34,067 nucleotides of DNA from Nitrosopumilaceae archaeon (lineage in GTDB: Archaea > Thermoproteota > Nitrososphaeria > Nitrososphaerales > Nitrosopumilaceae): positions 1 to 34,067 of the forward strand of contig JASHNR010000013.1 of NCBI GenBank assembly GCA_030041535.1. Reading direction: 5' to 3'. The position numbers were made by a program, and so were the translations under genes. The first letter of the stretch is position 1, and each line of letters opens with the position of its first letter. The notes under the pieces are model-generated. The model had not been told where the DNA came from. It made no database searches and saw nothing but the letters and a program-made list of their open reading frames with translations. Positions 29,718 to 34,067 of this stretch are shown piece by piece.

Positions 29718-30649
29718 TTTTGATTCCATTCCTCGACCTTTTCTCTCCAGTTCTTTGCCAGCTCTTCTATTCCTTTTGCTGAAAGTTCTGAGGCAATTTG
29801 CCTTCCAAGCTCTTTGGCCTGTGTTGGTTCAGAATCTCTTTTAACTGTGATAAATTTGCTGCCGTCTACAGAATAAACCGTAACACTAAGAGTCAGTTTG
29901 CCTCCATCCTGATCAGCAAGAGCCCCTACTGGGAACCTACATCCCGAGTCTACAAACATCGATAACGAACGTTCAGCTTCAACTGCAGTTCTTGAGACTT
30001 GATCCTCAATTTTTTTTAGTATATCAAGTAATTTGATGTTATCTTTTCTTGCCACTATTGCCAAAGCACCCTGACCTGGAGAGGGTACAAAAATTTCTAC
30101 AGGTAGTATCTCAAATTTCACATCAAGTCCCAATCGTTGTATACCAGCTTGAGCTAAAACTATACCATCAAATTTAGCCTCATCTATTTTTTTGATTCTT
30201 GTTTCTATGTTGCCCCGGATTGGTTTTACTATCAAATCTGGTCTATGCCTTGATATTTGTACTGCTCTTCTCAAGCTGCTTGTGCCAATGACTGCTCCTT
30301 TTTTTATGGCATTCAATGTCTTGCCATCTTTTGATATGAATATGTCATTTGGTGGCTCTCTCTTTGGAATACAGGCAAGTACGAGTTCTTCGGGCAGTTC
30401 TGCCGGAACATCCTTTAAGCTATGTACTGCAAAATCCACTTTTTTTTCAGCAACAGCCCTATCGATCTCTTTTTCAAATATTCCTTTTTGGTTTATAGTA
30501 AAAAGTGGTCTTGCATCTGTGTCTCCTTTTGTTTTTATTGGAACTATCTCAAATTCTGTCTGCTGGACGTTCTTTTTTAGTTCTGAAATCACCCAGTTAG
30601 TTTGAGCTGGAGATAGTTGACTTCCTCTTGCACCTACAAGATATCTCAT
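29714..30649 (-). CDS. hemC: Hydroxymethylbilane synthase (porphobilinogen deaminase)
   Basis: Polymerises four porphobilinogens. The dipyrromethane cofactor attachment residue is Cys237 in VDSGCRFPVGAL. The catalytic Asp80 is in VDFAVHSLKDVPAE, and the substrate-binding arginines are in GTSSLRRAVQ and KPIRGNIETR. 311 residues, typical. The ATG overlaps the hemL stop by four bases. Confidence 0.96.
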   Translation of the reverse strand: MRYLVGARGSQLSPAQTNWVISELKKNVQQTEFEIVPIKTKGDTDARPLFTINQKGIFEKEIDRAVAEKKVDFAVHSLKDVPAELPEELVLACIPKREPPNDIFISKDGKTLNAIKKGAVIGTSSLRRAVQISRHRPDLIVKPIRGNIETRIKKIDEAKFDGIVLAQAGIQRLGLDVKFEILPVEIFVPSPGQGALAIVARKDNIKLLDILKKIEDQVSRTAVEAERSLSMFVDSGCRFPVGALADQDGGKLTLSVTVYSVDGSKFITVKRDSEPTQAKELGRQIASELSAKGIEELAKNWREKVEEWNQK

Positions 30650-31923
30650 TCTTTCACCGTCTTTAACGCTTTTTCGTATGCAATAATTGCCTTTTGCATA
30701 TCTTCATCTGTGTGAGCATATGAAAGGAAAACGGTTTCAAATTGCGATGGTGCTACAAAGATTTCATTCTTTAGTAACCCATTGAATAATTTTTTGAATT
30801 TCATAGCATCAGATGCCTTTGCAGTAGAATAGTCAACCACTTGCTTGTCTGTAAAAAAGATCTGAAACATGGAACTAATGGAATTAATTTGGTGTTGTAT
30901 ATTCATATCAGATGCGAGATCTCCCAGAGTCGATACCAGATTTTTGCAGGCTCGCTCAAGTTTAGGATAAAGTTTGGCTTTGTTCTTATTCATTGTTTTT
31001 ACAGAGGCAAGTGCGGCAGATACGGACACAGGATTGCCAGCATATGTGCTTGCTTGATAGACTTTTCCTTCAGGAGAAAGGATATCCATAATCTCACTTT
31101 TTCCACCAACTGCTGCAATAACAAAGCCATTTCCTAACGCTTTACCAAGAGTGGTGATATCTGGCTCTACAGAATATGATTTCTGAGCCCCTCCAGGGGA
31201 CATTCTAAATCCTGTCACAACTTCGTCAAATATCAAAAGATTGCCATTTTCGGATGTGATTTTTCTTATATCGCTTAGAAAATTTTTTTCAGGTAATACA
31301 AGTCCCATATTTGCAAGAACTGGCTCTACTATTACAGCCGCAACATCTTTTTCTTTTTCTAAAACAGAAGCAAGTTCCTCAGAATTATTATACTGAACAA
31401 CTAGTGTATTCTTGGAAACTTCTTCAAGACTTCCATCAGAAACAGATATTCCCATATGGGCTGCTCCAGACCCTGCCTTTACCAAAACATAATCGTGTGC
31501 ACCATGATAACACCCCTCAAACTTGATGATTTTTTTCTTTTTTGTAAAACCCCTTGCCAGTCTTATAGCAGTCATGGTTGCCTCGCTTCCTGTATTTACT
31601 AGTCGAACTTTTTGCATTGAAGGAAAGTTTTTTGATATCAACTCAGATAATTCCACTTCAAGTTCTGTTGGTGCACAGTAAAGAGTTCCTTTTTTTAGTT
31701 GAGACAAAACGCTAGAAATAATTTCCTCTCGTCTATGACCTAGCAATAATGCACCATATCCATTGCAAAAATCAATGTAATGGTTTCCGTCAACATCCCA
31801 AAGTGAGCTTCCTTGAGCCTTTTTAACAAAGAATGGATAAGGATCATAATATCTAACTGGACTATTAATTCCAGAAGGAATTACTTTCTTTGATCTCAAA
31901 AACAGTCTCTTTGAGTTTGACAT
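30646..31923 (-). CDS. hemL: Glutamate-1-semialdehyde 2,1-aminomutase
   Basis: Class III PLP enzyme that converts glutamate-1-semialdehyde to 5-aminolevulinate, the product taken by hemB. Motifs: IPSGINSPVRYYDPYPFF, LVNTGSEATMTAIRLAR, FEGCYHGAHDYVLVKAGSG, the cofactor-binding LLIFDEVVTGFR, and the Schiff-base Lys261 in TTLGKALGNG. 425 residues, full length. The ATG at 31923 is about 28 bases after a TATA box. It heads the hemL-hemC-SUMT-hemD operon. Confidence 0.96.
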   Translation of the reverse strand: MSNSKRLFLRSKKVIPSGINSPVRYYDPYPFFVKKAQGSSLWDVDGNHYIDFCNGYGALLLGHRREEIISSVLSQLKKGTLYCAPTELEVELSELISKNFPSMQKVRLVNTGSEATMTAIRLARGFTKKKKIIKFEGCYHGAHDYVLVKAGSGAAHMGISVSDGSLEEVSKNTLVVQYNNSEELASVLEKEKDVAAVIVEPVLANMGLVLPEKNFLSDIRKITSENGNLLIFDEVVTGFRMSPGGAQKSYSVEPDITTLGKALGNGFVIAAVGGKSEIMDILSPEGKVYQASTYAGNPVSVSAALASVKTMNKNKAKLYPKLERACKNLVSTLGDLASDMNIQHQINSISSMFQIFFTDKQVVDYSTAKASDAMKFKKLFNGLLKNEIFVAPSQFETVFLSYAHTDEDMQKAIIAYEKALKTVKE

Positions 31924-31945
31924 CCATCTTCAAAAAGACAGATTG

Positions 31946-31956
31946 TCATTATAACC
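31946..31956 (-). promoter_or_regulatory. TATA box for the hemL operon
   Basis: Minus-strand GGTTATAATGA, centred 28 bases before the hemL ATG at 31923. Confidence 0.5.
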
Positions 31957-32095
31957 TATATGGAATAATCATTGACCGCCATTTTAATAGGATAAAGCAG
32001 TATTATGTAATGTATGGATGAGCCTTACAGTCTTTGACAAGTATTGCAAGTCCGAGATTACCAAATCTAATTATTAATATCAGTTTTCCGAGTTT

Positions 32096-32284
32096 TTGAA
32101 ATGGACTAAAATTAAGGAAGGTGACGGAATATTACAACTTAAAGAATCAGCGTTACAAGAAATGGTCGAGGATCACATCTATTCTTTAAGGATCCTTACC
32201 AAACTTGGCAACGCTAGAAGGAACCAACCTGTAAATCTTATCCCAATTAAGCACCCTATCGTTCATGCTAAAGAACAATTGTAA
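32096..32284 (+). CDS. Weak small ORF in an ORF-poor patch
   Basis: A 62-residue frame starting with TTG, about 22 bases after an AATTATTAATAT box. The product is charged and partly helical (SALQEMVEDHIYSLRILTKL), with no recognised motif. Support is the box position and a plausible N-terminal half; the C-terminal half (NQPVNLIPIKHPIVHAKEQL) looks less protein-like. It could be real, a remnant, or chance. Confidence 0.3.
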   Translation: MKWTKIKEGDGILQLKESALQEMVEDHIYSLRILTKLGNARRNQPVNLIPIKHPIVHAKEQL

Positions 32285-32310
32285 ACTAGCCACAACCCCA
32301 CTATACGAAT

Positions 32311-32571
32311 TTGGAGATACTCTATGCATATTTGTTGGATAAAGGGTTGATTAATGGTGAAAAGCGTCATACAGATAGTGGTTGTGCTGTTGTCTTTACC
32401 TCTGATATTACAACAAGAGGAATGGATATTGTTGAATTGATTGTTAATAACTCAATTAATGAATTAGAACCACAGATAAGTGAAGAAATCAAAAAAGAGA
32501 ATATCACACCTGAAAGATTTGAGAAACTTAATGACATATGTCAAAAATATGCTCCCATATTGATGTCGTGA
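32311..32571 (+). CDS. Small protein, possible 5'-truncated remnant of a thaumarchaeal wHTH-like family
   Basis: The 86-residue frame is coherent: YAYLLDKGLING, TSDITTRGMDIVELIVNNSI, then a charged C-terminal helix. It resembles the C-terminal part of small thaumarchaeal winged-helix-like proteins, in which a helix-turn-helix would precede this region; that is my recollection, not a search. The start is TTG, with no TATA box at the expected distance and nothing like a helix-turn-helix upstream in frame. A 5'-truncated gene is therefore plausible. The last residues before the stop are QKYAPILMS. Confidence 0.45.
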   Translation: MEILYAYLLDKGLINGEKRHTDSGCAVVFTSDITTRGMDIVELIVNNSINELEPQISEEIKKENITPERFEKLNDICQKYAPILMS

Positions 32572-32700
32572 TTAAGGTATCAGGAACAATATTCTCAAAC
32601 CTGAGATAAAGTCTAATCCATAAAGTTAGAAGATTAAAAGTGGTTTTACAGTATAATGCCAGATTCATTCCATAAAATATATTTGGATATTTTTTATAGA

Positions 32701-33675
32701 TTACCAAAAATCTGCTTTTTTCAGATAAGCTTCCTGAATGAGCTCTCTTTCCATCATGAATCTGTCCGTGTCTACTGACTTTATTCTAGTGGCAACTTCT
32801 TTAGCTAACTGATATTCCTTTTGCCACTCCTCTATGAGTTTCTCCTCAAATTTTGGATACCTGCGTTCCATATTCAGGATCTTGTTCAGATTGAATTTGA
32901 AATCCACTCCGTGCTCTTCTAGTAATTTGATGGTTGCCTCGCTTGACATGTCAGATTCCATCAGCTCCCTTGGGTAGGTACCTAGCAGGTTTCCAATCTT
33001 TGCCATCTTTTGGGATATGTAATTGAGTTCTCGTAACATTCCAAACTCCTTGTCATTGAAGCCATTGGAACACATGAGGTCAAGGTCCATCTGTATCATA
33101 ACCTGAATACCGTGCGGCACATACGCCTCGTTCTCAATTATGTTGACTGCATTGCTATACTCATTTACAAAGCTGCTGTATCTCAGCGCATTCAGAAGCT
33201 GCATGATGTCAAATTCTAGAGCAACCTTGTACTTTTTGTAATGTGGATAATTCTTTACCACTCCCAATAATGCATTGTCCCAAATGTCCTTTGTTATGTC
33301 CAGATATCCAGATTCTTCCTTACTGAGTTTGGATTTGTCTATCTGTTCTGAGTTAAATGGAATTTTTATCAATTCATTGAAGAGCTTTGTGTTACGCATC
33401 TGCTCATTGTCGACCAAATCATCCAATAGCACTTCCCACAAGGCAAACTCTGTCTTTACCACTGCTAATGAACCCAGATATTTGTGCTCTACTGTTGATA
33501 GCCCAAGGTTCTCAAGCCCCAGAAGAAGCCAGTCAAACATGCTGCTGTCTCTACGGCCTATTTTGCTATACATCTCCACGACGGGCAACATATCCTTGAG
33601 CAACTCCTCATGTTTTGCTACAACTTCTGGCCTCAAAATAGTAGCTGGAAACTTATCCCGAGGGTACCTGTTCAT
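32701..33675 (-). CDS. Candidate class I terpene synthase-like protein
   Basis: A 324-residue, almost all-helical protein. It contains an aspartate-rich motif Asp85-Asp86-x-x-Asp89 (LLDDLVDNE) and, 144 residues later, Asn229-x-x-x-Thr233-x-x-x-Glu237 (IGNLLGTYPRE), which matches the NSE/DTE metal-binding motif of class I terpene synthases. Spacing and length fit bacterial sesqui- and diterpene cyclases. I cannot find the usual pyrophosphate-sensor arginine about 46 residues before the NSE motif, nor a clear C-terminal Arg-Tyr at the usual place (an RRY occurs at 271-273, earlier than usual). So the fold assignment is an inference from two motifs. The ATG is preceded at 10 bases by GAGGTC, a good ribosome-binding site, unlike the leaderless genes nearby. 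No prenyl-diphosphate synthase is adjacent. Confidence 0.5.
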   Translation of the reverse strand: MNRYPRDKFPATILRPEVVAKHEELLKDMLPVVEMYSKIGRRDSSMFDWLLLGLENLGLSTVEHKYLGSLAVVKTEFALWEVLLDDLVDNEQMRNTKLFNELIKIPFNSEQIDKSKLSKEESGYLDITKDIWDNALLGVVKNYPHYKKYKVALEFDIMQLLNALRYSSFVNEYSNAVNIIENEAYVPHGIQVMIQMDLDLMCSNGFNDKEFGMLRELNYISQKMAKIGNLLGTYPRELMESDMSSEATIKLLEEHGVDFKFNLNKILNMERRYPKFEEKLIEEWQKEYQLAKEVATRIKSVDTDRFMMERELIQEAYLKKADFW

Positions 33676-33681
33676 TTAAAA

Positions 33682-33687
33682 GACCTC
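33682..33687 (-). promoter_or_regulatory. Ribosome-binding site of the terpene synthase-like gene
   Basis: Minus-strand GAGGTC, six bases of good match to the 3' end of 16S rRNA, about ten bases before the ATG at 33675. A TATA-like CTTATATTAAAG (33734-33745) further up implies a leader of about 37 bases, so this gene is translated by a Shine-Dalgarno route. Confidence 0.55.
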
Positions 33688-33733
33688 AAAAGAAATTGGT
33701 TGCAAATATGACAAAAATACAGCACCATTTCTT

Positions 33734-33745
33734 TAATATAAGATT
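33734..33745 (-). promoter_or_regulatory. TATA-like box for the terpene synthase-like gene
   Basis: Minus-strand CTTATATTAAAG, about 65 bases before the ATG, giving a leader with room for the Shine-Dalgarno site at 33682-33687. Confidence 0.45.
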
Positions 33746-33818
33746 GATCTTGGTAATCATGGTATACATGTAATTCATGGCTACATATAATGCTTGAATA
33801 CAGGTTTAATCTTATTTG

Positions 33819-33968
33819 ATGGGAAAGATCCTAGGCGCAAGCAAGGTCACCGTGAGATACCAAGTAACCATCCCAGAAGAGGTACGAAAACAGATGAAAA
33901 TCGAGGTAGGACAGACAATAGTATTTACAGAAGAGGGCGGAAAAGTAGTTCTCAAATCTGATTTGTAG
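33819..33968 (+). CDS. AbrB/SpoVT-type DNA-binding protein
   Basis: A 49-residue swapped-hairpin AbrB/MazE-like domain: KVTVRYQVTIPEEVRKQMKI, then VGQTIVFTEEGGKVVLKS, the usual size and order for the family. Such proteins are dimeric DNA-binding regulators or antitoxins. No toxin gene is visible in the remaining 99 bases of the window, so a partner downstream cannot be excluded. An ACATATAATG box lies about 30 bases before the ATG. Confidence 0.85.
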   Translation: MGKILGASKVTVRYQVTIPEEVRKQMKIEVGQTIVFTEEGGKVVLKSDL

Positions 33969-34067
33969 CTCCCAAGTTTTTTAGTTTGGCCTTATCTTGT
34001 ATTATTTTATTAATTGTCCACAACTCAGAAAGTGCAACGTAATCTAAGAACAGTATGACTTGGAAAA
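33969..34067. other. End of window, no gene seen
   Basis: 99 bases after the AbrB-like stop contain T-rich and AT-rich sequence that may hold a terminator and a promoter for a gene outside the window. No ORF is supported. Confidence 0.4.

Follow-up and report, generated by a model that had tools for sequence, protein, structure and literature searches.

A probable class I terpene synthase from a divergent, previously undescribed archaeal family in a Nitrosopumilaceae archaeon

In this study, we believed that the gene at positions 32701-33675 (minus strand) of a 34,067-nucleotide stretch of Nitrosopumilaceae DNA, analysed whole and called the window here, encodes a class I terpene synthase, divergent and probably active, from an archaeal protein family that was previously undescribed; we gave this reading a probability of about three in four. 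The analysis showed the motifs and their invariance, the collinearity with terpene synthases, the gene neighbourhoods, the tree and the presence of prenyl diphosphate synthase genes, whereas the fold, catalysis, substrate, product and role of the family are what we infer from these data. The original prediction had left open a choice between a divergent cyclase and an isoprenoid-synthase-fold protein with another reaction. The former is now the best reading, given that a Natrinema member of the family matched a Pfam terpene synthase model, that the family and terpene synthase profiles were collinear and scored well above shuffled profiles, and that prenyl transferases matched at the Asp-rich motif only.

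The gene is a complete open reading frame, stop codon included, which begins with ATG (33673-33675) and encodes 324 amino acids, as had been predicted; its assignment as a gene for a class I terpene synthase-like protein was based on the reading frame, an alignment of 15 proteins and its relatives. The source genome is 1.83 Mb in size, with 99.86% completeness and 0.38% contamination, its genus contains many sequenced species, and haem-biosynthesis, suf and pgk-type genes were recognised by eye among the translated reading frames of the same contig. Therefore, a misplaced contig is unlikely. The synthase gene is situated on the upstream side of hemL. In the thaumarchaeal contig, hemL lies 2.1 kb from the end (region 30646-34067), and in three relatives of the same genus it lies approximately 1 kb from a contig end; in the comparison of synteny around hemL, several contigs of relatives stopped about 1 kb away. 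A repeat or a hypervariable site upstream of hemL is possible. Upstream of the synthase gene, a divergent reading frame of 49 amino acids (33819..33968, plus strand) encodes a MazE/AbrB-type DNA-binding protein (PF04014, E = 4.4e-09), which is a possible regulator of the synthase gene. A second gene copy, 65% identical, was found on another contig (C49) of the source genome. With no more than 400 bp between each copy and the end of its contig, partners upstream may lie out of sight. Beside the second copy, a divergent reading frame that begins at the contig end looks like a winged-helix regulator.

The family comprised 15 full-length archaeal proteins, of which two were from the source genome, five from Micrarchaeota, two from other Thermoproteota and six from haloarchaeal megaplasmids. 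None of the 24 genomes of the same genus that we examined carried the gene, and among 300 genomes of its phylum the 324-aa protein matched only its own genome. One further profile match among these 300 genomes (L019) was an amidotransferase-like reading frame and was rejected as a chance hit. In the GTDB contig collection, one close relative (64%) was found in a Micrarchaeota metagenome-assembled genome. Profile searches found the gene in six Micrarchaeota genomes, including the one found first and one in which the gene was cut by a contig end, and in two genomes of another Thermoproteota family. The six haloarchaeal genes were found by tblastn of plasmid records, with identities of 25-29% and E-values down to 2e-23. 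No relative was found in the viral contigs and phages searched.

Class I terpene synthases carry an NSE/DTE motif, (N,D)Dxx(S,T)xx(K,R)(D,E), approximately 140 residues downstream of an Asp-rich motif. Both are present in the 324-aa protein where the original prediction had placed them: the Asp-rich motif DDLVD at codons 85-89 (33409..33423, minus strand, counted from the start codon) and the NSE-type motif NLLGTYPRE at codons 229-237 (32965..32991, minus strand), with N229, T233 and E237, and R236 as well. The spacing, said to be like that of bacterial cyclases, was 144 residues, compared with 139 in the Micromonospora homologue of the actinobacterial enzyme Sat1646. In the alignment of the 15 homologues, D85, D86, N229, T233, E237, E240 and D242 were invariant at identities down to 22-30%, position 89 was D or E in every protein, so that the Asp-rich motif reads DDxx[D/E] in all of them, and R236 was kept in 14. 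The second position of the NSE motif was L, V, M or W in the family and D in canonical enzymes. The invariant Asp242 (codon 242, 32950..32952, minus strand), 13 residues after N229, resembles the Asp of the GD motif that follows the NSE motif in the Micromonospora terpene synthase. When the motif pair was written as DDxx[DE], 110-175 residues and Nxxx[ST]xx[KR]E, it occurred in 98 of 200,000 shuffles of the 324-aa protein (about 5 in 10,000), and among the 288 reading frames of at least 250 codons in all the DNA analysed, it was confined to family members. We considered conservation across homologues to be stronger evidence than these shuffle statistics. An unrelated helical protein with a chance resemblance to the motifs would fit the fact that the 324-aa protein as sole query had no match in Pfam, NCBIfam or PDB. 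However, the rarity of the motif pair in shuffles and its invariance in distant homologues, one of them above a Pfam cut-off, make this explanation highly improbable.

The homology to terpene synthases was carried by the haloarchaeal members. The Natrinema protein matched Terpene_syn_C_2 (PF19086) with 24.5 bits against a Pfam cut-off of 23.7 bits, and the aligned residues 80-253 covered both metal-binding motifs. Weaker matches to the same model came from the Halobellus member and two Halorussus members (1e-4 to 7e-3), and a still weaker one from a Micrarchaeota member (0.15); a PF19086 search of the source genome returned no match. Thus, the profile search against terpene synthase families, which had been proposed as a check, bore out the terpene synthase reading through the Natrinema member, but the 324-aa protein itself stayed unmatched. 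A match of one member to PDDEXK_10 (18.1 bits, below the cut-off of 21.2) was regarded as chance.

We compared the family profile by unanchored hhalign with a reference profile built from four canonical terpene synthases and four proteins of the Sat1646/Stt4548 group (PDB alignments and two actinobacterial records). The score was 41.6 over 157 columns with both motifs in register, whereas 100 column shuffles had a mean of 12.8 and did not exceed 20.4, and reversing the profile lowered the score to 13.7; the family profile was about 14 SD above the shuffles. The haloarchaeal subgroup alone also scored 41.6. The thaumarchaeal and Micrarchaeota subgroup alone scored 21.6 over the NSE stretch only, against shuffles of up to 19.0, which is not significant, and the argument for the 324-aa protein consequently runs through its haloarchaeal homologues, with which its kinship is secure from the tblastn matches. 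In searches of the PDB, the sole match of the haloarchaeal profile was Sat1646 (E = 0.28) and that of the Natrinema protein was astellifadiene synthase (E = 1), each with the NSE motif in register and each not significant alone. With a 9-member profile, Mn-transporter chains outranked Sat1646, which came fourth (E = 1.1), and the 15-member profile had no match. AlphaFold2 models made from two sequences only (the 324-aa protein and one relative) had pLDDT values of 43 and 38; they were all-helical with a compatible layout and too poor for cavity geometry, and Foldseek with a model of this low confidence gave no significant fold match.

We also considered a protein of the isoprenoid-synthase fold that carries out another reaction on a prenyl diphosphate, for example prenyl transfer (by chain elongation or by head-to-head coupling) or hydrolysis of the diphosphate. 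In favour of this, the Asp-rich motif is similar to its counterpart in archaeal prenyl diphosphate synthases over 16 aligned columns, and two features of canonical cyclases, the helix-G sensor Arg and the Arg-Tyr pair, are missing. The second metal motif, however, is of the NSE type and not a second DDxxD, profile comparison gave 41.6 over 157 columns for terpene synthases and 20.3 over 16 columns for archaeal prenyl synthases, and ordinary prenyl synthase genes are separately present in each genome tested. The family shares with the archaeal prenyl diphosphate synthases (PF00348) an expected isoprenoid-synthase fold and a similar first Asp-rich motif, but the combination of two DDxxD motifs and profile similarity that marks an E-prenyl diphosphate synthase was not found. 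We therefore judged this alternative unlikely, and the terpene synthase reading is the one followed below.

Sat1646 and Stt4548 (PDB 7e4n and 7e4m; PMC9814573) are class I diterpene synthases of actinobacteria whose substrate is copalyl diphosphate. Sat1646 is reported to carry its pyrophosphate sensor, Arg220, in helix H and not in helix G; its linker is Asn182 and its effector Tyr183 (PMC9814573). Arg220 is three residues before the NSE Asn223, and the position three before N229 in the archaeal family (226) was R in 10, K in 3 and H in 2 of the 15 homologues. Lys226 of the 324-aa protein (codon 226, 32998..33000, minus strand) is thus, by position only, a candidate pyrophosphate sensor in helix H, and K/R226 may serve as in Sat1646 and Stt4548. 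Similarly, H188 and G189 are 41 and 40 residues before N229, as N182 and Y183 are before N223 of Sat1646, and YVPHG (codons 185-189, 33109..33123, minus strand) is a candidate helix G1/2 break with the linker and effector positions, judged from its spacing to N229. The original prediction had described the sensor Arg as missing. This was correct for the helix-G position of the effector triad, where no Arg is found, but K, R or H stands at 226 instead and this basic residue may take the role. The Arg-Tyr motif, also described as missing, was indeed absent: no conserved RY followed the NSE motif in the 15-protein alignment. This pair belongs to canonical bacterial enzymes, and we did not treat it as defining for the whole terpene synthase class.

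Compared with known systems, the family resembles Sat1646 and Stt4548 in the two motifs and their similar spacing, in the basic residue of helix H three before the NSE Asn and in the Asp 13 residues after that Asn. In contrast, the overall identity is approximately 10%, the PDB E-value is the 0.28 given above, and no cytochrome P450 or class II cyclase lies beside the thaumarchaeal gene. With Terpene_syn_C_2, the family shares one member above the curated cut-off over both metal motifs, whereas the 324-aa protein and most members fall below it, and neither a helix-G sensor Arg nor an Arg-Tyr pair is present. Like the non-canonical terpene synthase classes IB-IF (PMC11234867), the family is missed by ordinary sequence searches. 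However, classes IB, IC and ID have been described as proteins without DDxxD/NSE motifs (PMC11234867), and the archaeal family, which keeps both, is set apart from them by these descriptions.

We propose the following mechanism for the enzyme. By homology, D85, D86 and D89 in helix D and N229, T233 and E237 in helix H would hold three Mg ions, and these would bind the substrate, a prenyl diphosphate (geranylgeranyl diphosphate being the most likely one), through its diphosphate group. K/R226 in helix H would sense the diphosphate and help to trigger its departure, and the resulting carbocation would then close into a terpene hydrocarbon or alcohol. Archaeal membranes are built from isoprenoids, and geranylgeranyl diphosphate is made by archaea for lipids. 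Each of the eight genomes tested had prenyl diphosphate synthase genes, and the enzyme should therefore have access to a substrate of the geranylgeranyl diphosphate type.

Most neighbours of the family genes encode sensors and not enzymes that would tailor a terpene. At each of the four Micrarchaeota loci with intact surroundings, the synthase gene was accompanied by a KaiC-like ATPase and two V4R proteins (L003, 7148-10150; L020, 4636-6576; L022, 8631-10539; L023, 3369-6264), and a fifth locus had the V4R pair and the synthase gene on a contig that ended just before them. Gene order and orientation varied among these cassettes, so the genes have stayed together despite rearrangement. The synthase gene of the two other Thermoproteota adjoins, in convergent orientation, a gene whose product, a membrane protein of roughly 615 aa, contains a MEDS domain (L025, 7762-9597; L026, 1258-3117). 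A second region of these membrane proteins is weakly similar to DUF7090/DUF7504/DUF835. Among the haloarchaeal neighbours were HalOD1 proteins, a PAS histidine kinase, a FilR1-type regulator and BAT/HTH_10 regulators with PAS and GAF domains, all of them absent from the Natrinema locus. A Halobellus neighbour labelled "prenyltransferase/squalene oxidase" was considered as a possible class II cyclase partner and rejected, since Pfam matched it best to glycoside hydrolase and lyase toroids. In the source genome, searches with V4R and with a Micrarchaeota KaiC query gave no match, the latter search having been run without a positive control.

PoxR and MopR, two phenol sensors, are among the relatives of V4R, and MEDS is predicted, in a title cited in the same source, to sense simple hydrocarbon derivatives (PMC5847659). 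The linkage to sensor genes in the four intact Micrarchaeota loci, the frequency of regulators elsewhere and the lack of adjoining tailoring enzymes would also suit a non-catalytic, ligand-binding derivative of a terpene synthase that acts as partner or sensor for the KaiC-like, V4R or MEDS proteins. However, the metal ligands are invariant in 15 proteins of four archaeal groups, which is unexpected once catalysis has been lost, and the source genome, without a match to V4R or the KaiC query, carries two motif-intact copies. We considered this derivative slightly less likely than the prenyl diphosphate alternative above. Under the preferred reading of an active terpene synthase, the gene in Micrarchaeota and some other lineages is tied to KaiC-like, V4R and MEDS proteins, and its product, or the production of it, probably takes part in signalling or a regulated response. 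It is a tentative and rather doubtful idea that a terpene signal from the synthase is sensed by its neighbours, that is, by V4R and KaiC-like proteins in Micrarchaeota, MEDS proteins in other Thermoproteota and BAT/HalOD1 proteins in haloarchaea. On this idea, the genes would form a terpene signalling module of archaea, and its synthase would have passed between a thaumarchaeon and a DPANN lineage.

In the phylogenetic tree, both thaumarchaeal copies fell into a clade with three Micrarchaeota (support 100/100), which then grouped with the remaining two Micrarchaeota. The two thaumarchaeal copies did not resolve as sisters, but the fork in question was weak (81/87). Their position within the Micrarchaeota clade is most simply read as lateral transfer, in either direction, between the source thaumarchaeon and Micrarchaeota. 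The thaumarchaeon would thus have exchanged the gene laterally with a branch of the Micrarchaeota and would keep two copies without recognisable sensor partners.

In the literature searched, we found no characterised archaeal class I terpene cyclase, and the sole archaeal terpene claim found there was the prediction of terpene gene clusters in haloarchaea (PMC8600319). If the family is active, terpene cyclisation would occur in at least four archaeal groups, including the small-genome Micrarchaeota, and the archaea that carry the gene may produce a terpene that has so far not been described in them. The repeated linkage to small-molecule sensor genes would then make archaeal chemical signalling testable.
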